A stretch of DNA of 64,000 nt from Diphasiastrum complanatum (Eukaryota; Streptophyta; Lycopodiopsida; Lycopodiales; Lycopodiaceae): assembly GCA_029204225.1 (NCBI GenBank), contig CM055094.1, forward strand, positions 31,057,427-31,121,426, in the 5' to 3' direction. Every line of letters starts with the position of its first letter. Within the stretch, counting starts at the first letter, position 1. Below the pieces are notes generated by a model. That model was not told the origin of the DNA. It was given only the letters and a program-made list of their open reading frames with translations, and did not search any database. The position numbers and the translations under genes are program-made. Positions 17,601 through 63,578 of this stretch are shown in pieces.

Positions 17601-20600
17601 TAGTCATCTAGACATCAATCTAAGCTGTTATTTGATGCTAATTATTATCAAATTGGTGGTCATCTATGAAAAGTCTTTTGCTCGATGAAAGCCTTATTTT
17701 GATTGGCCTTGTATGAAGGTCAATTGAAATAAAAGTATTTTGCTCGACTAAAGCCTTATTACGATTGGCCTTGTATGAAGTTTGATTTGGTCACTCTCAT
17801 TCAATGTTGTACATTTTGTACTCGCAATAAGTACTGCCATGCTAAACTTTTGGGCTTCTTTGGCATTGGTCAATTCCACATAGTTAGTGGATTGATGTTT
17901 CTATAGATTTTATTTTAGGTCTTCCTTGTACACAAAGTGGTCATGACATTTGTCTTGTTGTGGTCAATTGTTGTTCTAAATAGGGACAATCTCATCTACG
18001 GCAAATTGACTTGACTTCTCCAAACTGGCAATTGAAGTGTATCTCCTTGATGACAAACTTGATACACTGCTCCACAGCTACAGTGACTTGATTTGGAATG
18101 ACTTACCAACTGCAAAATCCACAAAACATCACACTTACCACTCGCCACGAGTCTCCAAAGTGTGATTACTGACCCGGTCTTCAACTTCCGCGTGTCCCAC
18201 ACACAGTTCATCCAATGGAAGTTCGCTATCTTGCCCAATGGCTTCCAACTGGCACCACCTCGCATTTCAATCACCTGTGACACGACACCAAGCTACACTT
18301 TCATCGCCAATACTAGCATTCTCCATACGATTCCGCTATCATTCGCCCCCATACCGCATTTACTGCTCCCAAACACCCGGTTACCCTGTTAGAAGCAAGC
18401 AAACATGATTTCGAAGCGATTATGCGTACACCCTGTAGCAGATTTCACCAGCCAAAAATTGTCCCAAATTTGGCGCTATGGTACCCAAACGGCGAATGTA
18501 GCCCATCACTAGGTCATCTGCACTCCGCTCGATGGAATGGTGAAAGATGCCGACGATGGCTCCACCGGATTGTGCATGCTTGCAACACCCTGCCGCTCTA
18601 ATACCAAGTTAAATTTCCGATAGGATCTAGTGCATTATACAGATCACATCAACTAATTACCATAGCCACTCCTCACAAGCTCTCAAAGATGGCACAACAA
18701 AAGTTAATTGTATTACCAAAGAAACTGTACATATAGAGTATTCACAAACTTCCTAGACAGGTGTCCTAAAATTGGCCTACCACCTGATATGGCCAAATTT
18801 GACTGACAAACTCGAGACATGCCCCCGAGTATAGCAAGTATTGTAAATAACTCTGTAAAGGCTAATTTTTCCTATGTGTGGCCACTCGGCTAATCCAAGT
18901 AGCCGGCTACGGGATCAGTGCCCGATCGATATATCCATAGCAGGTCACGTCCCGAACACAACCAGATACAGTAAACCAAATTAATTGTACACTAATTACA
19001 ATATCACATTTGAAGCTTACATAAAATGTATATCAGATTAACTCTGATTTCTAACTAAGTACTTGCAATAATGAATTGTGGAACCTTATATTATACTTTT
19101 AAGCCCGTTTAGTTGGATAAGACTATTCTCAGTGGATAAGACTTGGAATCTTCTAGGCTTTTGCCATATTATTATAATCTAACCATATTTCAGATTATGA
19201 GTTTGGAGTCCTGTGCTTCTTGTAGGGGAGTTCCATATTTTTGGAGTTCTTAGTTGGAGATCTGCCTGAGCTCTCGGCAGCCGTTGATGTTCATCGAGAT
19301 TTATTAGGTGGAGATTGCTTTGTGAATGTTTTATGCTGTTTTATGTTTTCATTGATGTCATTATTTGGGATTAAGTTACTAACATTCACAAGTAATCAAT
19401 TTCAGTGAGTAATTTTTAGGTCATGCTTATTAATACAATATACAGAAAAGTAGGATCCTACTCCACAAATCTAAGACTCAAAGAGTTCTCACATGGCAGC
19501 GGGATCTGCAATCAAGTATGGGTATGTAGCATGATGATGACTGCTGACAGAATTGAGACATTGGGTTCTGTGATTCATTGAGGTGCCCTTCTACAATGCT
19601 TGCAAGAAGATTATATTTAGGCTGAGCCTAGGCAATGTTCTGTTCTAAGTCATACTGGAATATTACTTAAAGAGAGAATGCTCTTACCATTGTATTTGTG
19701 TAGCACACGAGCAACTCAATTTAGGTCAAACTAGCATTGCTGATATTTTTTCACAAATCAAATGTATTGCTTTCGAGCAATCAGAGCTCGTACACCTTGG
19801 TTCTACATAATTTCTCGTTATTACTTGCAATTTATGCAAATTTCAATATTTCATGCTAATATGCTATTTTATGTTATCATATGTAGATTTTTAATGTGGC
19901 ATTGTACAGTTCTAAGATGGTTCTTCCCATTCCAGGAGATAATTGCAGCACTCCCAACAAACTTGAAGGTCGTGGATCTTTCTGCGGTGCGTCAAATGGC
20001 TTTTGGTTTTCACAGTAGAGTTGGGTTACCATGAGATTAACTTTGGAATTACTTAAGCTCAGTTGAATGTTTAAAGTCATTTTCCAGGTTTGATGCAGGA
20101 CTTTCGCTTGCGTGATGTTAATGAGTATGAAGAGTGGTATCATGGGCCACATCGTGCTCCTCATTTGCAGGTACTTTCAAATGCAGACGAGGCCACATTT
20201 CTTTTAAGAAATGACTTAGCAGAACTATGCAATATTTTTCAGCTAATTTTGCAGGTGATCACGTTCCATACATGTGCTGAAAAGGTTTAAGTTGATTGTA
20301 ACCCATACAATATGGTGCTTACTGTATCTAAGATTGATTTGGAATTTGTCGCCTTCACAGCTGTGTCTAGAATCATGAGCTTTTAATGTAAGATCAAACA
20401 TATGCTAGCAAGAATTTCATGTGCAAAATTCTAATGATTCAGAAAGAGGCAGTTTATGGGCTTACAGAGCTTCGGCGCGACAAAATTCAGAGTGCACGGT
20501 TAGTGGCAAATCCTGGTTGCTATCCCACATCTGTCCAGCTACCGCTTGTCCCACTGCTAGAGGTGACCTCCATTGCAGAGATTCCAACTTTTGCCATGTA

Positions 20601-27873: not shown

Positions 27874-28272
27874 TGTTGAAGAGTAATGCCTATTTTACCC
27901 CTTTTGGCTAAGCATTAGTTAAGTTGTACATAACTCATGGGGCATGTTTTAATTAAATGCATGAGACCCCCCTTTTGTTAAGTTATGTAAATTAGTGCAA
28001 GTGGCCCACTTGGCCAAGTAGCTCACTCCTATGGTTGACACCTAGACTTTCCATGCATGTAAAGGAGGTGCTTGCCTCACAAGGGATTTGGAGGACCCAC
28101 GCCCTCCTCTCTCTCTCTAGCAATTCATTTCTTCTTGAGACTTTTGAGTGTGTGAGATGCTCATGCAATTCTCCTTGTGTGTGATATTTCCATAGCCAAG
28201 TTTTCTCAAGCTTTCATAGTTGATCTAGCATTTGAGTAAAGATACTCCATAGCTAGGTCTTGTAAATCTTCA
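27874..28272 (+). repeat. Copia-3 5' LTR
   Basis: It begins TGTTGAAGAGTAATG, ends GTAAATCTTCA, and is followed by the primer site TGGTATCAGAGCAGG at 28273-28287. Confidence 0.95.
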
Positions 28273-31063: not shown

Positions 31064-32506
31064 AAAAGACCAAGTTTCATGCCAATGGAACAGTGGACAA
31101 GTACAAGGCAAGGTTGGTGGCGAAAGGCTATGCAGCAAGAGGGGCTAGACTATGATGAGACATTCGCACCTGTTGCTAAAATGACATCTATCAGGACCGT
31201 TTTAGCTATAGCCTCATATTTTGATTGGGATGTCCATCAAATGGATGTCAAGAGTGCCTTTCTTAATGGGCACCTACAGGAGGAGGTTTACATGGAACAA
31301 CCGCAGGGATTTGAAATAACAGGCAAGGAGAATCTGGTTTGCAGGCTTAGGAAAGCCTTGTATGGGCTCAAACAGGCGCCAAGGGCTTGGTATAGCCGAA
31401 TTGATGAGTACTTTGCAAGGCAAGGGTTTGAGAAGAGTAAGTCTGATTGCAATCTTTATGTCTTCAGAGAAGGAGAAGACTTTGTGGTTGTTGTGCTCTA
31501 TGTGGATGATCTACTCATCACGGGAAGCAATAAGAAGCTTATTGCTTGTGTTAAGAAGAATCTTTCTAATGAGTTTGAAATGAAAAATTTGGGTTTGCTA
31601 CACTATTGCCTAGGAGTTGAAGTTTGGAAAGGGAAGCGTTGTCTTTTTATCTCACAGGCAAAGTATGCACAGAAATTATTGAAGAGGTTTAACATGCAAG
31701 AAAGCAAACCAATCAGCACACCCATGGATGCAAGCAACAAGCCATCAAAAGATGATGGTCCAGCATTTGCAGATGAGACGCTCTATCGTCAGTTAGTGGG
31801 CAGCCTGATTTACCTTACTACCACCAGGCTAGATATTGCTTATGCGGTTGGAATTGCAAGTCAATACATGTGTAAGCCTACCGAAGCACATTGGAAGGCA
31901 GCCAAGCGGATCCTACGATATGTGAGAGGGACAGTGACTTATGGGATTGGATACACGGATGACGGGAACCTTCAGCTGGAAGGTTATTCAGATTCTGATT
32001 GGACAGGTGATAGAGACGATCGGAGATCGACGACAGACTATTGTTTCAGCCTAGGTTCAGGGGCTATATCGTGGTGCAGTAAGAAGCAGCCTACTATTGC
32101 TCTATCGTTAACCGAAGCTGAGTACAGGGCGACTACGAGGTCCGCCTGTGAAGCCATTTGGTTACACCGTCTACTTGAGGACATGCAGATTGCTCAAGTA
32201 AGACCTACATTGTTACATTGTGATAACCAAAGCTGCATTCAGCTTGCGAGGAATCCAGTTTATCATGCACGGACAAAACACATAGAGGTGGACCAGCATT
32301 TTATACGAGAAAAAGTGCACAATGGGGAGATCGAGCTAGTTTATTGTGACACCAACGACCAGACAGCTGATATTTTTACTAAACCACTTAGTAAAGATAA
32401 GTTTGAAAAGTTCAGAACTTTGTTGGATGTCAGTTTGAATAAAATTGCCATTAAGGGGGGGGTGTTGAAGAGTAATGCTATTTTACCCCTTTTGGCTAAG
32501 CATTAG
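31064..32506 (+). pseudogene. Copia-3 reverse transcriptase and RNase H
   Basis: After a one-base loss at the KGYA-QQEG motif (near 31130) the frame is open to 32506. It carries QMDVKSAFLNGHLQEEVYME, LRKALYGLKQAPRAWY, the catalytic YVDDLLITGS near 31498, and SLIYLTTTRLDIAYAV. RNase H follows (YSDSDWTGD, LSLTEAEYRA, CDNQSC, HARTKHIEVD, ADIFTKPLS). The last codons enter the 3' LTR. The domain itself looks intact. Confidence 0.92.
32453..32462 (+). other. Copia-3 polypurine tract
   Basis: AAGGGGGGGG lies directly before the TG of the 3' LTR. Confidence 0.85.
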
Positions 32507-32860
32507 TTAAGTTGTACATAACTCATGGGGCATGTTTTAATTAAATGCATGAGATCCCCCTTTTGTTAAGTTATGTAAATTAGTGCAAGTGGCCTACTTG
32601 GCCAAGTAGCCCACTCCTATGATTGACACCTAGACTTTCCATGCATGTAAAGGAGGTGCTTGCCTCACAAGGGATTTGGAGGACCCACGCCCTCCTCTCT
32701 CTCTCTAGCAATTCATTTCTTCTTGAGACTTTTGAGTGTGTGAGATGCTCATGCAATTCTCCTTGTGTGTGATATTTCCATAGCCAAGTTTTCTCAAGCT
32801 TTCATAGTTGATCTAGCATTTGAGTTAAGATACTCCATAGCTAGGTCTTGTAAATCTTCA
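32463..32860 (+). repeat. Copia-3 3' LTR
   Basis: 398 bp, about 1.3 percent different from the 5' copy. It is followed by the CGGAC target duplicate. Confidence 0.95.
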
Positions 32861-40575: not shown

Positions 40576-41324
40576 TTATTTTGAAATATTTATTTCAACC
40601 TCCAAACATAGTAAGCTGACAAAGGGAATTACTGAATCCTCGCTATCTAAACTCTTTTCCACTTCAGATAGTTCATCTGGCAAAACTGAAAGAGATTTCA
40701 TTCTCATTTTTACAAAATCAACTAAATTAGAATCTAAATCTACTGTAGCAACATGTCTGCCTTTCTGAACAGCACATGCGCTCGTAGTGCCGCTATTGCT
40801 AAATAAATCCAAAACCCAATCAGCTGGGTGAGAAAAAATATCAATTAAATGATTAATTAATTGTTGTGGCTTTTGGTAGGGACAAGCCATGGAACCCGTC
40901 ATTGGATTTTTTAGTTTCTTGGTCACGGCTGGATATTGAAACAAGTTTCCAAAACTTGTCAGTCCGGAAGTGTTGTAATGAAGCATCGAACGTTTGTCAT
41001 CCAAAGAATAATAACCGATGGTTATGTATTATATTTCATTGCAAAGTCGTGCTCCTCCCGAGTTTCTGACATTGGGCTTGTACTTGACATGGAACATTAC
41101 AAGTAAAATAAATAAAAAAGTTTAACTTTAAAATAAAAAAATTTAAAATATAATTATGAATTAAAATACAAATTAAAAACTCAGTAACTTAAAAACTTAT
41201 CACACAGCATTTTCTATTCCCGCATTATAGAAAGTTAGTAGAGCTTTCTATACTGAAGCTGACTGCCAAGAAGAATGAAAAATAACAACTCTCCAATTGA
41301 AAAAATTGTGACTTCAAGTAAACC
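40576..41324 (-). pseudogene. Beta-class DNA methyltransferase domain
   Basis: The block after CATGCAG at 41324 reads NWRVVIFHSSWQSAS and FYNAGIENAV with in-frame stops. This is the 'W-x-V-I-F-x-S-x-W-Q' strand that follows the catalytic loop in N4/N6 MTases. The terminal frame reads TIGYYSLDDKRS, then CPYQKPQQLINHLIDIFSHP and WVLDLFSNSGTTSACAVQKG. The D-L-F-x-x-S-G-T-T is the SAM-binding motif, with VDLD completing the pocket. The order catalytic loop, then SAM motif marks the beta class. Cytosine-N4 versus adenine-N6 specificity cannot be told. Confidence 0.7.
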
Positions 41325-43792: not shown

Positions 43793-45715
43793 ATGTCAAG
43801 TAGTTCTACCTCTTCTATTCCAGTAGTTGTAACTCAATACGTTGCAACAAATGCATCATCTTCATCTGATATTCCCAATGAAAGCTTTTTTTATAAAGCC
43901 ACTCTTGATTTTCAACATGTTTTCATAATGATGTGGCATCATCATCATTAGTACTTTTCAAGAAATGACGTCTGTAACTCAACTTGTGTCAAAGCTTTCG
44001 ACCTCGTCCTCCTCTTTAGCTACAGGCTTTGCACAATTAGAACATTGTTCTTTTGAACAAGTTGAATCATTGAGTGATGAGTCAAAAGCTTCAATTCACT
44101 TAGTTACTGATTCTAGTAAATCAACAGATTTGCGTAAGTCTATTGATCCGCGACGTTCAAGCTTTTCTCATGTTCGTAGGAGACCTTCTTAAAGAAATGT
44201 TCGTCGTGTTAAATCTAAAAGAGAAATTTGACGATTACCATTGTACATCAAATAACTTGCGAATTTGGTGAAAATTTTCTAGAAATACTTTATTTGCAGC
44301 TTGACAACACTACTAGGGAAAATAAAAACCAAACACATACTTGTCCATGCTAGTGGAGAAATTTTTTTTTCAAAAAAGTAAAAATAGGATTTTTATTGGT
44401 AGGACATATCCACAATCAAATTGATCAAATGTTTAGTTGCTTTTCTAAGAGGTTGAGATGCAAAAAAGCATTTTCTTTACCAGTGCTTCAAAGCATTGTT
44501 GAGGAATCGTATGTGCCAAAGCCAAACGTGTCATTAATCAAACACACATATGATTTTCATGATTATGTTAAGACGTCCAACAAAACAGAGCGATGCGTAG
44601 CTAATATTAATTATATTAGCTTTTAGCACCAGTTTAAAATCAAATGTAACGAATTAGACATTATATTATTATGGGGCAAACTATTTTCAAATTCAGTTTC
44701 ATGGCTACCTCTTGAAGGAGTTCGATTTTTGCTTAACATTCCATCTACTCAAATCAAGCTTGATGTGTTGTCTCCCTTGAAGTCCTTGCTAGAAGAACAA
44801 AAGGCGCAAAGAGAACATCATGAGATTGATCCATTTGCCTCATTAAATATTTTGGAATTGAGTATTCAAGCAGCTTATCATTTTTTTTGATGAGTTTGAT
44901 CAGCATTGGTGGATGGAATTTTTCGAGGAACAAAAAATCAGTCTGCTCAACATACATCAACAATTGAAGAATTTCATTGGCCTCATAAATTAGGAACATC
45001 AACTACAACTGCCAAACTTTCATATCTTCCTGGAGATAATGATTTCTTGTAGCTTGTGCAAGGTGAGGAACGTGAAATTTATGTGGGCTCAAGGAAGAAT
45101 AGACAAAGTGTAAAAGTTGCAAAAATGAAATGGCATGGTGATTTGAATGAAATCCAAATTGGAAGCCTTGTTGCACTTCTAGCTTCAGAAAACAATGAAG
45201 GACATCCATTTTGGATTGCCAAAGTACTTGGTTTTATTCAAAATAACAATCAAACAAAAGTACTACGTCTCTATTGGTTGCGCACCACTTCAACGAATTC
45301 TTTTTTTGAGAAGGTACGAACTCGAAATGTTACAAGTAGATCCAAAGACAAGAGAAAGAGATTGCCAAAAAATCACCCAAGAATCGACGATTTGAATCTA
45401 CAAGATGTAGATGTTTTGGCATTTAATTTTGAATTAACAATGACCAATCATCTACGAAAGTCAACTATATTTATATTGAAAGAACGACTTGGATTACTGG
45501 AACAACCATCATCCTCCACTCGTCACCAACAGAAAAAAGCTGCTTTACAAGGTTTTTTGTCAACATTAGACGTAGATTTTTAGGAAGATATGTCAGTTGA
45601 CTCTGATAAAGAAGACGGGTCTTCCACTTCATCAGTTGAAAACGAGAGTATTGAGAATATGTCAAGTTTTGAATTGAGAGGCATCAGTGAAAATTCCTTA
45701 GAAAATGTACTTTAA
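43793..45715 (+). pseudogene. DUF7869-type transposase-like gene with internal deletion
   Basis: An ATG at 43793 starts a Ser/Thr-rich leader (MSSSSTSSIPVVVTQYVATN). It is continued in other frames to about 44215. The signature block follows at 44275-44620: LQLDNTTRENKNQ, then FFKKVKIGFLLVGHIHNQID and QMFSCFSKRL. This matches the QLDNCxRENKN...VGHTHEDIDxxFS pattern of DUF7869 proteins, eukaryotic transposon-associated proteins. Downstream are WLPLEGVRFLL and SPLKSLLEEQKAQ, an SH3/BAH-like block (IGSLVALLASEN...PFWIAKVLGF), and an acidic tail ending at 45715. A TAG at 45581 and several earlier stops break it. The region before QLDN is missing, so part of the gene is deleted. Confidence 0.65.
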
Positions 45716-46285: not shown

Positions 46286-46839
46286 TTACGGGAAATATGG
46301 GCTCAAACTAGGCCCTTTAAGAAATTTCAGAGAGGTTACGTAGAGAGACAATGTGAACCGATAACTTTTGGTCGCCATTTTCCGAGTTTTTGGTCTTTCT
46401 TGTCGTTTAACTAGTATGGTTAACTTCACACATTAGTTAGTTAAGCATGAGATGTAATAACTTCTCTTCATGCTCGTTTCAAAAATCGAGGCTAGAGCTT
46501 TAAGAGTGTAAACCTTGGTGTGCTCACTGCTAAAACTGAAGCGGGAGTACAATGAGCACTTTTGATATCTTCATATGCTTATAGTGAAATATGAGGCGGG
46601 ACGATTTTTCAGCACGACATATACATTACAAAAGTAAGGTACGCTAGATCTATTAAGTTTGACTTATTGTGGTTTGAAGCATTTACGGATTGTAGCTTTC
46701 AACAATGGCAATGTTTCATTTGCATGTTGCACTTTCAATGGAATGCACTCCAATTAATAAGAATAATTTGAAAGTTGTAGAGAATGTTGTGGAAATAGTT
46801 AGAGAATTCAGAATGAATAATCATAAAAATTATAGATTT
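46286..46839 (+). other. 5' flank of coiled-coil gene copy A
   Basis: It starts with a segment resembling 59935-59990 (AATATGGGCTCAAACTAGGC here, AATATGGGCCCAAAGAGGGC there). Both lie just past a copia fragment and about 530-550 bp before the coiled-coil gene. In both places it can be translated as IWAQ...KK, so it may be a 5' exon. Confidence 0.4.
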
Positions 46840-47937
46840 GTGGGTGGATGGATCAATTTATCCTAATGATCCAGCTACCAATGTGTCCAAATTTTAAGTC
46901 CATAACTGATCTTCTCAAATTTGTATGTGAAGGAAATAGCAGATTATTGGGATATTGTCAAAGGTTGCGTGATATTGGAATGCATAGCATATTTTGTCTT
47001 AATCAACAATTACAGTTTGCTAATCAACAATTGCAACGATCAAATCAACAATTGCTTGGTTATGTGCAACACGCCACTGTTGAAAGCATTGCACTCAAGC
47101 ATGCTATATCAGAGTTGAATGCTACGGTCACAACTCTTCGAGGCTCAAACCAAGAAATGTTAGAATCCATGGAGAAATTGCGATCTGACAATTTAAAATT
47201 TGTTGTTGATATAAAAATTTTAAAAAAGACAATGATAAAAAGAAAAAGAAAGAGAGTACCGATGAAGAATATTGATGACTTATCCACACACAGTGGCAAT
47301 AAAAAAAAAGAATTCCAGCATTTAAGTATGTTTCTTATAAACTGTTTATCTGATTTGTATTTGTCATTTAAGTTTGACTTGGATTATCAATTTATTAAAC
47401 ATAATTTGAGTTTTTATATGTTTGTTGTAGATCATATTTGGTGGCAAAGAACTATTTAACAGATCGTTCATGCATTGGAGAATCCATAAGTCATGTTTTA
47501 TCGAGAAGTCAGCAAAGACAATGATGAAAAATGATTAGTTTGAAAAAATGAAAAAAGAAGTTGTAGAGACTGTTTTGAATAAGGTTAATACTTACTTGGA
47601 TGCAAAGCTGATACAAGGTGCATGTGATGATTCTAGAATTAGCAGAAATGCTTATTCTAATTTTTTTAGAATAGTTAAAGAAGCCTTTTCTCAAGTGATG
47701 TTGAAACAAACTTATCTTCCTCGTCCATATCGCGTAAGATTAGCAAGAAATTATTATAATGATGGAATGTTCAAAGTAGTTGGCCAACCACTTTATATAA
47801 CAAATTTATACAAATCAGAATGTGGTGAGCTCAATTACAACGATTGTTATAATATTTTTCTTGATATTAAAAATGTTCTAAAATATATTATTCGATTCTA
47901 CAAACTAGACGAACATCAAGAAAGATTATTATTGTAA
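46840..47937 (+). pseudogene. Unrecognised coiled-coil gene family, copy A
   Basis: I do not recognise this family. Part one (46840-47330) reads SIYPNDPATNVSKF, FKSITDLLKFVCEGNSRLLG and YCQRLRDIGMHS. A glutamine/asparagine-rich heptad stretch with repeated NQQL follows, and then a basic patch (KRKRKRVP). Part two (about 47430-47937) reads YLVAKNYLTDRSCIGESISH, then LIQGACDDSRISRNAYSNFF, RPYRVRLARNYYNDG and IRFYKLDEHQERLLL before a TAA. Part two starts after a TTGTAG acceptor, so an intron probably separates them. A shift near 46890 and stops near 47455-47540 suggest decay. Copies B and C share part two and part one respectively. Confidence 0.55.
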
Positions 47938-52662: not shown

Positions 52663-53535
52663 TTAGCGATTTGAAGCAATATAGTTATGCAAATACATGA
52701 AATTGCAACTACTAAAAAACAAGATGATAAGTTTGCTCGTACTAACACTTGTAATATTATAGAATTTCACTATAAATCTCAATAAATGATTCAAATCCAC
52801 AAACAAATTGTGGGTAGAATCATATGCAGACAAATTGCCAGATTTTGAATTTATAAATCTCATTGATGTGGTAAGAGATTCCAATGACGTTTTGCATACC
52901 CTCTCCAACTTAATTTGAAAAGGACAAGGAATGGAAAATTTTCTAACGTGCAATTGTCCAAAAGCCTCTTTAATAATTTTAAATATACTGGCATATGCCT
53001 CCCTGCTAATACCTAAAAAATCACATGCTCCTTGAATTAATGTTGGTCGATAACCTTACCGCCTCACTCATCAAGGCCTCAGTGACCTTGGACTTGATTC
53101 AAGAATATCGATTATTGTCTAGTAAAGACTTTGTGGACTTGGTTGTTAATACCGAACTCAACGATTTTCCGACCATGTCATTGTCTTTCAGATGCTCATT
53201 TGCAACCAATTATGCTGATCTGCAAAGGATGATGGAAAATAAATGTCATGTTACTCCAAATACAAAACAAAAACAAAACGATTCAAAACCAATGCTTACT
53301 GGCGATTTTTTTTGTCCAAGTGACATTTTTTAGATGCCCCTTTTGGAGTTTGTAACTCCTCTAATGCTTTTTTAACATACATACTACAATCATGTTGTTC
53401 TTGTTCGATTTTACATTAGAACACTGAGCATTTAATGTCATGTTCCTTGACGTTTTTTCTAGTACACTTTGATTAGCTTTGTTGCTTGAACACTTTACAT
53501 TGTGTAGGCTCAAGATTTTTTGGGCCATGTGGAAG
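52663..53535 (-). pseudogene. Unrecognised coiled-coil gene family, copy B
   Basis: Minus-strand blocks match copy A part two: LVANEHLKDNDMVGKSLSSV (after TTTGCAG at about 53236), GYRPTLIQGACDFLGISREA, YASIFKIIKEAFGQ, then CPFQIKLERVCKTSL and FVDLNHLLRFIVKFYNI. Upstream on the minus strand two charged frames (about 53535-53400 and 53410-53320) resemble the coiled coil and basic patch of part one. Several frame changes and stops make it a pseudogene. The repeated match to copy A at moderate identity is the main support for both being real protein remnants. Confidence 0.5.
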
Positions 53536-57739: not shown

Positions 57740-59940
57740 ATGGCCACTATGTGTGATAGTGTATTATCAAATGCGAGTAAATTGGAAGCCACATCTAAAT
57801 ACTTAGTTTGGAAATTCAAAATGAAAAATATTTTGATGGAAAATGATTTCATGTCCACTTCTAGATGAAGATAGAAGAGCATTCAATAGGCAAGGTTGAA
57901 GAGCTCAGAGTTTTATCAATCTATAGGTGAAGACGCCATAATTTTCTATATTATTGATTTAGCAAGACCACAGGAAGCATGGGATACTCTGAATAAGTTG
58001 TTTGAGATAGTCAATGCTTTTCGCATTCTCTTTCTAAAGACAAAGTTACACATGTTGAGAATGGACAATGATGCTACCATAGCAGAGCATTAATTTTTCT
58101 TACGGTGAAGAAAATTAAAGGTCAACTAGTTGCCATTGGTGAGGTTGTCAATTATCATGAAATTGTGCAATTGACACTAAATAGTGTGTCGGATAGTTAT
58201 CAAACATTTGTCACAAGCATTCCCACAAGAGAGATCCTACCTACCTATGAGGAGCTAGGAGGATTGTTGCTTTAGGAGGAGCAAAGGAGAGAAAATAATG
58301 GCTATCACATTAATCAAACTTTGGATCAGAATAGGCATTTGCAGTTAGAGGTCAAAGCCATTATAGAAGAGAGAGATTTCCGTGAAGAGGTGAAACTCAA
58401 GATCTAATCTTGAGCAACTGAGTGGAAGAGAAAAATTTATTAAAATCGACAAGGAGGTGGGCAACAACAATTCAATCAAAAGAAACATGACAATTGTCAG
58501 TATTATCACAAGCCAGAGCATTGGGAGTGTGAATGCAAGAAAAAATAATTCAACTAAAGCAAGAAAATGGCAAATGGAAATTTAGTCACTATGTGGATCA
58601 ATGCTATCAAGAGAAGGATGATTAAAACTATCAAGATTCTTATGATGATGTAGGTGGGTCTTCTGAAAAAAAAAATTTGTCTTGATGTCGAGTGAGGATT
58701 ACCATAACATATGATACACATTGATAATGATGCTACGAAACACATGACCTCTCATTGTGAATGGTTTAGCAAGTTCAATCAATTGAGGATGTAGGCGCAG
58801 TCGATCAGATTGATGACAAGCAGCTATCAATAAAAGGTGTAGGTGTATTTTGTAATGGAAAGATTAAACAAATTGAAAATATTCAATACATTCTAGGATT
58901 GAAGAAAAATCTATTTTCAATAACTCTAATTGCGGGTCAAAACATAAAAGTCAAATTCGGTAGACAACGATGTCTTGTAAAAGACATGAAAGATATCTAC
59001 ATGGTGATCACAATAGGACAATGACTGGATGGTAACAAGTTATATTGAGTTGATGCTATGATAGATATAAAAGCTCTACTATTTTTGGTGATAGAAATTT
59101 TGAGTTTTGGCATCGTCTTAGACATATCAATACGTAGAGCATTTGAATCTTGAAGAGGCATTCTATGGTGGCTGAATTGCCTGATTTGACTGTGATAGAA
59201 AAATCTATAAAAGTTGTGTGATGGAAAAACAACATAGAAAGAGATTTTTAAAATCAAAATTGAGGATACCTACTCAAATTATTGAACTAGTTCACATAGA
59301 TGTTTGCGAGAAGATGCGAATGAGATCCATTGAAGCTACTTATTACTTTGTGACCCTCATTGAAGATTATAGGTGCTAGATGTATCTTATTGCATATAAA
59401 TTAGATGTATTTGCAAAGTTTATTGAGTTCAAGAAAATGGTAGAGAAAAAAAATAGGCTAGAGTATGAATCAAATTAGTTCTATATTGATCATGGCTTTC
59501 AAAGACAAGTTACTACTTCTCACACACTTGAACAAAATGGAGCTGCTGAGAGAAAGAACAGGGCAATTGTGGAACTAGCATGAACAATGTTGAAGAACAT
59601 GACTCTACCAAATAGTTTTTTGGTGTTAGATTGCAACATGGTAGTTTATCTACTGAACATGTGTCCAAAGGTTGTAGAGTCCAAAACACCTGAAGAAGTC
59701 TTCTCATCAGTAAAACTGGAAATCTCTTATCTTCGAGTATTTGGTTGTAAAAATTTTGCACATATATCGAAAGATGATAGAAAAAGATTTGATGTAAAAG
59801 TTTACAAAGGGATATGATGATAGAGCTAAAGCATACAAATTATCATCAGTCAAGATGTTTTTTTTTATGAAGTTGACGGTCATATTAGCAATGTAGACTT
59901 GCATGGATTGTCATTTGATCATGCATTAGAGAAAATATGG
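57740..59940 (+). pseudogene. Copia-6: heavily decayed gag-protease-integrase remnant
   Basis: An ATG at 57740 opens MATMCDSVLSNASKLEATSK and YLVWKFKMKNILMEN. Gag follows with RPQEAWDTLNKLFEIVNAFR, LHMLRMDNDATIAEH and TFVTSIPTREILPTYEELGG. The zinc knuckle is damaged (CQYYHKPEHWECECKKK). The protease site DSG-A has become DNDATKHMTSHCEW. Integrase fragments are LVHIDVCEKM, LEQNGAAERKNRAIVELA and LRVFGCKNFAHISKDDRKRF. Stops occur every 30-60 codons. RT and LTRs are not recognised. Confidence 0.8.
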
Positions 59941-60439
59941 GCCCAAAGAGGGCCCTATAAGAAATGCCATGTGGGAGAGAGAAAAATAACTATAAAGTAA
60001 TGATAATATCATTTTCTAACTTCTTTACACATCTGCCCGCACTACTTTCCATGTAAATGAATGCACCTTAGTTTAGTCACATCAAACTTCACTGGTGGTT
60101 AACCATAGTTAAAATATAATTTTCAAAATGCTAAAATATTCCCTCCCAATAGTTGGGAACACTCAAAAATTTGAATTAGGAGTGACATTTCTGAAACAAA
60201 GCCTACGCCATCTCTATCTCCAGGGTCAAAAACAAGTGTTTAGTGCCATCTCTATCTCCAGCAGAGTCGTTAGCGCCATATCCAGCTTTGTTATTGTCAC
60301 TATGTTGTTTGTTACTATACTACTGTATTGATGACAAAGCCTTATCATCTTCATGTGGATCTGTCACCAGAATATGCTCCGCTCAGGACAAGAAATTCAA
60401 AGCAACTCAAATTGTCAACTTCTAATATGGTCTGATATA
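59941..60439 (+). other. 5' flank of coiled-coil gene copy C
   Basis: It begins with the segment shared with 46286 onward. The phrase GCCATCTCTATCTCCAG occurs twice (about 60207 and 60246). Confidence 0.4.
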
Positions 60440-60960
60440 GGGAGGAAAAGCTAAAGCATGTAGATTTATGGTCATCAGGAACATTGTATCCTATTGATCC
60501 ATGTTCATTGCAACATCCAGATTTTCATTCGGTGAGTCTAATAAATAATCTATATGTGTCATGGTAAAAATGACCTTTTGGGTTATTGTGAGAATTTGAT
60601 GCTCTATGGGAATGCACATTCAATGCAAAGAATACATTATTTGGAAGAGGAATCAAGGAAAATATCAAAGGAGTGCAAAGAAAAGTCTACAAAGTTGAAA
60701 ACTTGTTTGGATGAAAATGATATGCTCAAGAAGGAGATCCAAAGGTTGAAATCTTCTTTGCATCATTATACAACTAGTAATGATGAGATAAAAACTGCAT
60801 TTCAATCCATGCGTATCTCACATTTGTCTTTTATTAAAGATATGGATGTGCTCAACAGAAAGGTCTGAAGCAACAAGAGGAAAAGACTGGTAAACAGGGA
60901 CATATGTGATCTATCATCTAGAGGAAGTCATAGAAAAAGACGAATCTGTGCATTCAAGTA
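60440..60960 (+). pseudogene. Unrecognised coiled-coil gene family, copy C (N-terminal part)
   Basis: It matches copy A part one: SGTLYPIDPCSLQHPDFHSV, then LLGYCENLMLYGNAHSMQRI and HYLEEES. A strongly heptad-like coiled coil follows (ISKECKEKSTKLKTCLDEND, MLKKEIQRLKSSL), then FIKDMDVLNRK. After an in-frame TGA the basic end reads NKRKRLVNRDICDLSSRGSH and RKRR. A shift near 60570 and that TGA break the frame. The second part seen in copies A and B does not follow. It is the best copy for the N-terminal domain. Confidence 0.55.
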
Positions 60961-61142
60961 AGATATAGCTTATTTGGTATTGAATATTGCTTGAACTTTT
61001 TGATTCATTCATAATCACTAATTTTGTTATTTATTCATTTCAATTTTCTGTTGATTTGCTTATTATATACTACTGTGAATACTATGAGTGTCCTAATTTC
61101 TACTGACATTTTCATGAACATTACATTGCATGCGGAGGTGCA

Positions 61143-61546
61143 TTATAGATATATCTTCACATCTTGTTTGCATAGAAAAAAAATAAATGTAGACTGAAAA
61201 TCAACAAATCTACATTTTTTATTGTGAATTGGACACTCATCTATAGACTTGAAATCATTATGTAACTTGGTAAACATTCTGTCAAACTTAGCTTTATAGA
61301 TATGCTTGTCGAGTGCCACCAGGTCCTGATAATGAATCATGTCCTTATTTTGAGATCTGAATAACGGAGTACTGAGTAGGGACTTAAATATGAGATATAT
61401 CTCAGAAATGCCTCCACACCAAGACCCTCAGTAATAGAAGGAAGAATAAAAAGAAAAGGAGAAAAAAGAGATTTGAAATACTCCAAACTATTAGTAATAC
61501 CAAATTCATGAAAAAAAGAAAGCAAACTAGAATCAAAATTAGACAT
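61143..61546 (-). CDS. Hypothetical gene divergent from the H3-like gene
   Basis: I do not recognise it. An ATG at 61546 starts MSNFDSSLLSFFHEFGITNS, followed by a hydrophobic stretch (FKSLFSPFLFILPSITEG) and RYISYLSPYSVLRYSD. A stop after KIRT at 61337 overlaps a second frame, MIHYQDLVALDKHIYKAKFD and RMFTKLHNDFKSIDECPIHN, to 61143. Both frames look protein-like, so a frameshift or an unseen intron joins them. A leftward TATA box (61858-61865) lies about 310 bp upstream. It shares its promoter region with the H3-like gene. Confidence 0.4.
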
Positions 61547-61579: not shown

Positions 61580-61807
61580 TATCGCTCTCAAGCGCAAACT
61601 GCAGGTCAGACAAGCACCTCAAGGCAATGTGCGCTCAAAAGAGATACTAGAAATTAGAGTATCAGATCCGAGCGCGTGAAGAAAGAGCACACAAGAAAGG
61701 AGATGTAAGGCACGCTTGAATGTGATACCGGATGAGGCAGTATCGGTTATAGACACAAGTTAGTCAACGGAGGATAATCAGTGCAAACGGCGCTCTTGAA
61801 ATCGATA
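61580..61807. promoter_or_regulatory. Left array of 16-bp motifs (TATCRNTYTCRAGCGC)
   Basis: Copies lie at 61580-61595 (+, TATCGCTCTCAAGCGC), 61631-61646 (-, TATCTCTTTTGAGCGC), 61660-61675 (+, TATCAGATCCGAGCGC), 61712-61727 (-, TATCACATTCAAGCGT) and 61790-61807 (-, two bases longer). The first four start 51, 29 and 52 bp apart and alternate in strand. If the leftward TATA box is used, the array lies in the 5' UTR of the minus-strand gene. Confidence 0.75.
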
Positions 61808-61857
61808 TTCGACCAAGAAATCATAAATTTGCATGAAAATCCGAGTTGAAAATGACC

Positions 61858-61865
61858 TATTTATA
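61858..61865 (-). promoter_or_regulatory. TATA box for leftward transcription
   Basis: The minus strand reads TATAAATA. It sits at the left edge of the CACGTG cluster. Confidence 0.5.
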
Positions 61866-61876
61866 AAAAAAATTCA

Positions 61877-62115
61877 CACGTGTGGAGAATAACGAAGAAA
61901 CACGTGTTGATGTATGATTGGTCAGAATTAATACGTCGTATAGAGAATGATTGATTTGACATCTGTCACGTGCGAGAATGACACGCATCGAAACGAGATT
62001 CGTTCACTTGTCCCAACCCACGTGGCCTCATAATTGAGTCATCATTGTCAGTACGGACATTCCACGTGGACCAATAAGCTAACAACATGTGCCTTCGGCC
62101 GTCTTTTCACACGTG
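61877..62115. promoter_or_regulatory. Six CACGTG (G-box) elements in 239 bp
   Basis: Exact CACGTG at 61877, 61901, 61967, 62019, 62063 and 62110. In plants bZIP and bHLH factors bind G-boxes. All six lie between the two divergent TATA boxes. A CCAAT sits at 62071. Confidence 0.85.
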
Positions 62116-62128
62116 CAAAAATTTTGTA

Positions 62129-62136
62129 TATATAAG
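62129..62136 (+). promoter_or_regulatory. TATA box of the H3-like gene
   Basis: TATATAAG lies 250 bp before the start codon and just after the last G-box. Confidence 0.6.
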
Positions 62137-62186
62137 TCCTCGAAATTTTCATTTTTTTTCACAAAATTTTCGGTTTTCGCTCCCAA

Positions 62187-62336
62187 TATCACTCTCAAGC
62201 GCGCCCTCTCACCGTTTAATCGTCCGCCCTCTCACAGTGCGCTCGAGACCGATACCGCTGGTAGTCCAATATTGCTTTCGAGCGCGCATCTTGTTTCTTA
62301 AAATATTCTGTGTATATCTTGCGTTCGAAACCAATA
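62187..62336. promoter_or_regulatory. Right array of 16-bp motifs (TATCRNTYTCRAGCGC)
   Basis: Copies lie at 62187-62202 (+, TATCACTCTCAAGCGC), 62239-62254 (-, TATCGGTCTCGAGCGC), 62270-62285 (+, TATTGCTTTCGAGCGC) and 62321-62336 (-, TATTGGTTTCGAACGC). Starts are 52, 31 and 51 bp apart, in the same strand order as the left array. It lies between the TATA box and the ATG of the H3-like gene. Confidence 0.8.
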
Positions 62337-62383
62337 TTCAGTTCTAGTATCAACTTTTTTTTGTTAATTTTCTTCTTCTCAGA

Positions 62384-63578
62384 ATGATGGCTAGGACCAA
62401 ATCCACTGCCCGTGCCATAACCACTATACAGCCATTCCATGCTCGTGTTCCCCCTAGTACTGGCCATAGACGTGGCAAGAAGCAGGTCTGGCTGAGGGAG
62501 ATTAGAAAACTCCAGAGATCAACTGAACTGTTGATCCCCAGAGCTCCTTTCAGCCGATCTATAAGGAAGTCACTTTGTCACTTGGGCTAAATGCTCGTTT
62601 TGTCGTGACAGCCATGCAGGCCTTACAGGGTGCTGCAGAATATTTTATGTCCCAGTTTTTTGAGGATACTTGTCTTTTGGCAGTGCGTGGTAAGCGTGTC
62701 ACCATCTTGGCCAAAGATTTCGTCATTCTCAGAAGGTTTCGAGACCGTTTTTCTGGTCTGTATGTTGATAACGCTAGCACCTCCAAAGACCTGCCCTGGG
62801 TAGAACCAACTTGCCTACTACCTCTAGGAGGTAGAGGAAGCAGCCTGTCCCCAAGAAGGCTGGATCTCGAAGGCCAGCTACTTCCCTTCCTCCTAGAGTT
62901 ATCCTAGCCAAGAGACCCCGGATCATCTGGTGAGCTTTGAGTCAGATGTTGGCGAGAATCTTCACCTCTTCTTCCTCCTGTTACTCGTCCAGCTCCTCAG
63001 CAAGTTTCTTCACCAAAAGTGTTGATTACCCAAGAGGAGCTCGACAAAGTAACAGAGAAATCTGTAAATATTGTTTTTACTTTTTTGAGTGGTATAATTT
63101 ACAAGTGGATGTAGATATTGAAAAGGTAATATTCTGTTCATTTGTAGTTCCTTTCATTCTGATTCATATTTTTTTACTATCATTGTTTGTAATTTGCTGA
63201 TTCTCATGTTTTGTGATGATAGTTCACTCTTGAGCCGTATACTTCTGACGATGTATATAGATCTTGGCAAGAGTTGATCAGAACCTATGCCCAGAACGGT
63301 GTAAGTGTTGCACCTGAGATCGAGGGCCCTCAAAAGCAAGCTGCTCCTACCTTAACAGCCTTTCAGGTTGTTCAGGATGCAGATCTTAGTATATATAATT
63401 GAAAGGAATAGAAGTCCTTCCTAATACAGAGGAAGGCAATATTATAGCAAAGAGTCCTCTTGTCTTAAAAGGCATTGAGGCCCTTCCCGAAACAGAGGAA
63501 GACGAGATTATAGAAAGAGCTGTTCCCTTATCAATTCCTAATACTGATAAAGAATATATAAAAAAATTGACTGAATAG
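62384..63578 (+). pseudogene. Divergent histone H3-like gene with C-terminal extension, frameshifted
   Basis: ATGs at 62384 and 62387 give MARTKSTAR, close to the H3 tail start MARTKQTAR. A divergent tail follows, then the H3 alpha-N helix and helix 1 region (WLREIRKLQRSTELLIPRAP). A one-base shift near 62565 moves the histone fold to the next frame: EVTLSLGLNARF, VVTAMQALQGAAEYFMSQFF, EDTCLLAVRGKRVTILAKDF, LRRF. ELLIP resembles centromeric H3, but loop 1 is not lengthened. Beyond the fold a basic Pro-rich part (RKQPVPKKAGSRRP) and VLITQEELDKVTEKSVNIVF precede an intron at 63126-63222. The last exon carries TLEPYTSDDVYRSWQELIRT and, after another shift, two 22-residue repeats (LKGIExLPxTEE) to a TAG at 63576-63578. 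Normal H3 ends right after the fold, so the ~250-codon extension is abnormal. Three or more shifts suggest a pseudogene. Confidence 0.7.
63399..63530 (+). repeat. Two 66-bp coding direct repeats
   Basis: 63399-63464 and 63465-63530 are in-frame units encoding LKGIE-V/A-LP-N/E-TEE-x-x-II and related residues. They lie at the C-terminal end of the H3-like gene. Confidence 0.8.

Follow-up and report, generated by a model that had tools for sequence, protein, structure and literature searches.

Mirrored arrays of a 16-bp motif in the putative two-way promoter of a high-copy inverted-repeat element of Diphasiastrum complanatum

Two divergent genes and the arrays between them

The window analyzed here, a 64,000-nucleotide stretch of the lycopod Diphasiastrum complanatum (C3:31057427-31121426 of the 1.74-Gb assembly), contains a decayed copy of a repeated mobile element in which two divergent genes are separated by a presumed bidirectional promoter. 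The leftward gene (61179-61546, minus strand), delimited by open-reading frame (ORF) comparison, has its start codon at 61546-61544 and a frame shift near 61346. The rightward gene resembles histone H3; its histone part (62384-62757, plus strand) is interrupted by a frame shift near 62575, with both halves matching the Pfam Histone family on either side of the break, and its second exon, encoding the C-terminal tail (63223-63575, plus strand), is also broken. Two outward-facing TATA boxes, that of the leftward gene at 61858-61865 on the minus strand (TATAAATA) and that of the H3-like gene at 62127-62135 on the plus strand (TATATATAA), lie between the start codons together with six CACGTG G-boxes (61877, 61901, 61967, 62019, 62063 and 62110, spanning 61877-62115); the remainder of the window contains five CACGTG. 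Both TATA boxes and all six G-boxes are flanked by the two motif arrays, so that each array falls between a TATA box and an ATG. This supports the mirror-spaced layout around a bidirectional promoter proposed in the initial annotation, and the same order holds, with transcription starts inferred, in most of the relatives examined.

The nine copies of the 16-bp motif described in that annotation within 757 bp were all recovered by motif matching, with 0-2 mismatches each. On the left they occupy 61580-61595 (+), 61631-61646 (-), 61660-61675 (+), 61712-61727 (-) and, closest to the TATA box, 61792-61807 (-); on the right they occupy 62187-62202 (+), closest to the TATA box, 62239-62254 (-), 62270-62285 (+) and 62321-62336 (-). 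The reported spacings of 51, 29 and 52 bp on the left and 52, 31 and 51 bp on the right are exact, as are the 12, 12, 13 and 14 of 16 positions said to pair within the +/- units, and the claim that the window holds no further copies agrees with the scores, the weakest of the nine reaching 19.66 and the next best match 13.6. The latter is an isolated partial match at 19765-19780 (TATTGCTTTCGAGCAA), the best site-like match in the window outside the element.

Two ruined sites had been overlooked: one in the left array at 61741-61756 (+; TATCGGTTATAGACAC), recognized by site scoring and array alignment, and a fifth site in the right array at 62348-62363 (+; TATCAACTTTTTTTTG), recognized by array alignment. 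With these included, the left array has six sites (+-+-+-, steps of 51, 29, 52, 29 and 51 bp) and the right array five (+-+-+, steps of 52, 31, 51 and 27 bp), which completes the six-plus-five plan found in other copies in the genome and leaves 2 of 11 sites ruined in the window. When 16-mer families were sought de novo in the 900-bp stretch, the best had 8 members at ≤4 mismatches, compared with a maximum of 6 in 200 shuffles; elsewhere in the window, 2 of 68 segments of 900 bp equaled or exceeded this size (13 and 8 members), both of them overlapping tandem-repeat rows.

Neither leader in the window contains an ATG, the right one counted from 62160 to the H3-like start (shuffle P = 0.059) and the left one over 274 nt (shuffle P = 0.016). 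Between the first right site and the start, relatives have no ATG in 10 of 20 cases, a single one in 8, and two or three in one case each, and given these we see in the leaders a lean toward upstream-ATG avoidance. Plant histone gene promoters carry the octamer CGCGGATC. The module resembles them as a TATA-containing promoter of a histone-type gene but differs in that its arrays lie downstream of both presumed starts and that it lacks the octamer, whose one occurrence in the window is at 44145; a histone octamer promoter was therefore set aside.

Copies of the module in a terminal inverted repeat element

A degenerate form of the 16-mer has 2,989 exact matches in the assembly, compared with 4 for the reversed pattern. 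The first 30 places gave 17 non-overlapping loci, each with at least three sites, and 18 of 19 further stretches (L031-L049) aligned with the element in the window at ~68-96% identity by piece, L048 being the one that did not. The occurrences thus do not have the character of random scatter without the spacing, the outcome that the initial annotation had named as speaking against it: the copies examined keep the spacing and, as judged from these alignments, the motif array is not a one-locus oddity. Copy counts rest on exact or near-exact patterns, and the loci were read mostly from contig C1.

The spacing was surveyed in 26 sequences, taking as neighbors sites within 100 bp of each other. Orientation alternates in 205 of 217 neighboring pairs, +- steps are 51 or 52 bp in 116 of 122 cases, -+ steps are 27, 29 or 31 bp in 79 of 81, and like-oriented sites consequently repeat at a period of 78-83 bp. 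An intact module has six left and five right sites around the CACGTG cluster, with 59-62 bp separating each TATA box from the nearest site. On the right this distance is 60-62 bp in all but two of 20 leaders, the exceptions being L038 (105 bp, its first site having a deletion) and L034 (without a TATA box); on the left it is 59-61 bp in 18 of the 25 rows with sites. CACGTG occurs at 10.8/kb between the arrays (123 in 11,399 bp) compared with 0.15/kb outside (25 in 163,173 bp). The left array is doubled in five copies (L033, L036, L041, L045 and L047).

One copy, read end to end, gave the full length of the element as 8,896 bp; its 11 sites (score ≥10) and nine CACGTG all lie in the middle of the element. 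A common right end, GGGCTCTAAGTTTCTCTAATG, was found in seven loci, with L031 differing by one letter; two of the seven, L035 and L040, are nearly the same sequence, and the L045 stretch stops 3 bases past the end. The inverted left end was found by inverted-end comparison at window position 59924 and in L053. In the window this left terminal inverted repeat (TIR) spans 59924-59954 (+), with CATTAGAGAAA perfect and ~31 bp imperfect; the ends of the element read CATTAG/CTAATG. At ≤1 mismatch, the right end matches 1,091 places genome-wide and the left end 1,219, with none for the controls. Terminal inverted repeats at sharp, common boundaries are what is expected of a DNA transposon, and a Helitron-like end, considered earlier, was dropped once the inverted left end had been found. 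Eight end pairs gave one 2-bp flank match and otherwise no target-site duplication (TSD), although some of the pairs may be chimeras. The clear inverted ends without a TSD above 2 bp, as from L053:3103 to L039:8398 and in the seven other end pairs, are unusual for a TIR element.

In window numbering, the present copy begins at 59924 and continues beyond the window end to ~65159, where it departs from the other copies. It lacks ~3.2 kb at 61123/61174 that is present in L036, L039 and L041, and 0.8-0.9 kb at 63081 that is present in L035, L036, L039, L040 and L045. Two of the loci, L035 (C1:13815509-13825202) and L040 (C1:44203500-44213157), are 99.4% identical over 9.7 kb in opposite orientation; since both have the same flank beyond the right end, comparison of the two marks them as a recent segmental duplication, not two insertions.

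The H3-like gene is better preserved elsewhere, and with its long C-terminal tail it recurs in L039 (5225-6016) and relatives as well as in the window (62384-63575). Its first part stays open for 282 codons in L039 and matches PF00125 at 5e-23, as a core histone H3 fold would. Among 6,774 first-look candidates in the genome, the best 150 scored were 74-84% identical to the H3-like query, and by our own count 45 of the matches listed were without stops; for the leftward gene, queried in its L041 version, the best 150 of 5,178 candidates were scored. The two genes stand head to head at at least 22 places among the matches listed, as assessed by eye. Pairwise ratios of nonsynonymous to synonymous change (dN/dS; 13 copies, 66 pairs for each part) had medians of 0.48 for the fold and 0.58 for the tail, consistent with a mixture of former constraint and decay. 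A protein search with the H3-like protein listed generic H3s, and the C-terminal region gave a single D. complanatum protein (79% identical across 36% of the query region). The H3-like protein scored 205 against H3.1 and 157 against Arabidopsis CENH3; its best PDB match was fission-yeast CENP-A, with a lead of about one bit, and at E 1e-20 the L039 H3 had no match in PDB.

Protein targets or paired strands

Site conservation was compared in aligned arrays. From 30 left and 28 right matches, 2 and 7, respectively, were dropped as the other kind read backwards, and L040 was dropped from each set as a near-copy of L035, leaving 27 left and 20 right; removal of five misaligned left rows gave the final 22 left and 20 right arrays. 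Conservation was 0.90 in the sites and 0.73-0.74 in the spacers (p = 1.3e-8 for the right and 7.4e-13 for the left arrays, values that serve as a guide because the copies are related), indicating that the site letters matter. Comparison of the copies thus places the module in the middle of the element, with six and five alternating sites at 51-52 and 27/29/31-bp spacing mirror-placed at the TATA boxes, and finds the site letters kept while the spacers drift.

We consider it probable (roughly 60%) that the two arrays are halves of one central bidirectional promoter of a high-copy TIR element and that the sites are duplex targets of a regulator, probably encoded by the element itself. With their even spacing, the motif copies resemble docking sites for a protein rather than hairpins, and we infer that a single protein recognizes each 16-bp site as duplex DNA and binds, in orientations that alternate, just downstream of both presumed starts. 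Host bZIP/bHLH factors would occupy the G-boxes and act on both TATA boxes; an element-specific protein would occupy the alternating sites, the first of them ~30 bp inside either leader. The predicted binder is most likely element-made, since the sites examined genome-wide lie in the element's arrays; the product of the leftward gene or of the transposase-like gene is a candidate. Its position would allow it to regulate initiation, pausing or chromatin at the two genes together, as an autoregulator or an anti-silencing factor setting their joint output, and in dead copies such as that of the window the array would be a remnant.

Several observations weigh against this interpretation. Element membership was looked at for 30 of the 2,989 site places, and no known Pfam DNA-binding domain was found in the divergent gene products or in the transposase-like ORFs tested. 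No TATA[AT]A was found in range in 7 of 25 left rows (two of which, L034+ and L008+, may be false start matches) and in 1 of 20 right rows. Two further observations concern pairing: the leaders fold better than shuffles (z = -2.79 on the right and -2.47 on the left), and at position 7 of L2, one of the five inverted units, a double change from A-T to T-A, outside any CpG, keeps the pairing in four rows.

The best of the other explanations is that a host transcription factor recognizes the sites and that the element has co-opted them for tissue- or stage-specific expression. We regard this as possible but distinctly less likely. The promoter already has a common plant box in CACGTG, and the fixed distance to the TATA box would suit the host machinery, but across the 17 loci examined the exact site was met only in the arrays, and the 2,989 matches against 4 leave little room for a widespread host site of the length of the 16-mer, a shorter host core within it remaining compatible.

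A second alternative, that the inverted site pairs form RNA (or cruciform) hairpins in both 5' leaders with their complementarity under selection, draws on the two pairing observations above, on the permutation of 3' arms across all rows, which seldom reached as much pairing in L3 (16 of 500) and L2 (2 of 500), on the location of the arrays in both presumed leaders, and on the fact that 4 of 5 window units taken singly on the sense strand fold better than shuffles. We hold it to be improbable. Any inverted site pair folds, so folding better than shuffles is expected, and there was no consistent difference between sense and antisense folding. Permutation across all rows gave as much pairing in 111 (R1), 185 (R2) and 493 (L1) of 500 trials, and true non-neighbor controls in 202 (R1a/R2b), 491 (L3a/L2b), 187 (L3a/L1b) and 356 (L2a/L1b) of 500. 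When permutation was confined to subfamilies (main and deep), the counts were 455 (R1), 550 (R2), 561 (L3), 314 (L2) and 988 (L1) of 1000, no excess in any of the five units, indicating that the excess in L2 and L3 reflects ancestry shared between subfamilies. The majority arms are moreover mismatched in all five, at positions 6 and 11 in R1, 6 in R2, 5 and 12 in L3, 6 and 11 in L2, and 6 and 12 in L1, and of 24 ways to assign the arms within the window, 3 pair equally well.

Much of the site variation is explained by CpG decay: 180 of 1,089 cells at CpG positions deviate, 166 of them as C>T or G>A, compared with 166 of 2,291 at other positions; most of the remaining double changes that preserve pairing occur in one row each, with C>T/G>A in the two arms alike. 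The TATTG shared by the arms of the last unit, cited in the initial annotation as a compensated change, is instead a CpG transition; were the arms independent, 0.5 of 20 rows should carry it in both, and one row, that of the window, does. The case shows plainly that the same change on both sides of a would-be stem does not in itself demonstrate pairing. The covariation of paired positions in relatives that a structured RNA leader would leave was not found, and hairpin covariation was rejected as the main driver given the lack of within-subfamily excess, the fixed mismatches and the CpG decay. Of the two forms of selection suggested earlier, paired protein binding is favored and selection on the paired form is not supported; that the arrays are under selection stands. 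A search of Rfam gave no match at the gathering score.

Binding of a transposase, with the promoter location secondary, is about as improbable as the hairpins or slightly more so. CACTA (En/Spm) elements have subterminal arrays of the TnpA motif, TIRs that begin with CACTA, and a 3-bp TSD. As in these elements, a short motif is present in many copies and both orientations within a TIR element, but here neither end of the full copy has a site nearby: all 11 lie in the middle, in phase with the TATA boxes. The TIR begins with CATTAG, with no TSD above 2 bp, and membership in CACTA was rejected on the CATTAG/CTAATG ends and the solely central sites. Passive tandem expansion of an 80-bp unit without a function of its own is very unlikely, since, although the summed loop similarity is above shuffles (1 of 1000) and left modules are doubled in five copies, the sites are much better conserved than the spacers of the same copies despite being CpG-rich, and the spacing is held.

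A possible chromatin role, known systems and neighboring remains

An extension of the protein-target interpretation, which we put forward as speculative, is that the transposon brings its own chromatin: an element protein on the 11-site array would mark the promoter, and the element's H3 variant would replace host H3 there, making the promoter difficult to silence through H3K9/K27 methylation. With a period of 78-83 bp, close to the length of DNA in a single nucleosomal turn, like-oriented sites would come to lie side by side on such a nucleosome. At the positions that we take to be K4, K9 and K27 in H3 numbering, K4 is kept at 19 of 19 places, the K9 position is alanine at 19 of 20 and aspartate in L032 (L001 and L049 being one place, counted once), and no ARKS-like motif for K27 was seen by eye in the H3-like copies. 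It is this combination, K4 retained, alanine at K9 and no recognizable ARKS, that would confer resistance to silencing. How transposons evade silencing in plants has yet to be settled, and an element H3 that cannot be methylated at K9 and shares the element's promoter would, if true, make one answer directly testable. A rigid mirror-symmetric two-way promoter is in any case kept across a high-copy family in an early-diverging vascular plant and is tied to an element-borne H3.

Transposon-borne histone H3 has been described in fungi, reportedly also in Pyrenophora (PMC3538342). A hAT transposon of Pseudocercospora, as described, captured a housekeeping H3, which was inactivated by repeat-induced point mutation (RIP) (PMC6710886). 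As in that case, a DNA transposon here carries H3-like sequence in many copies; unlike the fungal gene as portrayed there (PMC6710886), the present one has diverged from H3 and encodes a long tail, its K9 is replaced, its dN/dS is below 1 and it has a two-way promoter of its own. For the arrays, a close comparison is the anti-silencing system of VANDAL21 in Arabidopsis, a plant DNA element whose protein VANC21 is described as recognizing element-specific motif arrays (PMC5735166). According to the accounts of that system, a short motif is present many times in non-coding parts of the element and is rare at such density elsewhere, and modules gain or lose tandem copies (PMC5735166, PMC10398659); both likenesses apply here, since at the 30 of 2,989 places looked at the motif keeps to the element and is dense in its non-coding DNA. 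In contrast to VANDAL21 as described, the sites are 16 bp long, alternating, phased and mirror-placed in both leaders, and no VANC-like binder was found here. A literature search turned up neither a plant transposon-encoded histone nor this motif, which does not establish that they are absent from print.

Within the element, a coiled-coil ORF at 60554-60868 (+), without a Pfam family above the cut-off, is presumably a fragment of the rightward transposase-like gene, whose ORFs likewise gave no Pfam family above the cut-off. The coiled-coil ORFs at 46836-47459 and 60551-60940 (+), the second inside the element, are related (26% identity, E 1.5e-9). Two further related ORFs, at 47539-47937 (+) and 52663-53055 (-), belong to an uncharacterized family (LIQGACD..ISR.AY) that has a relative in the element's rightward gene and one in the protein collection (P0121). 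As regards a viral origin, one exact paired pattern had no match in viral contigs (1 of 8 scans), and no viral gene was noticed.

Elsewhere in the window, an N6/N4 DNA methylase domain at 40579-41028 (-; PF01555, 1.4e-12) and a DUF7869 match at 44354-44623 (+; 1.6e-20) appear to be remains of other mobile elements. A direct repeat of ~399 bp (27874-28272 and 32463-32860, 98.5% identical) flanks copia-like ORFs and probably represents a young long terminal repeat (LTR) retrotransposon.
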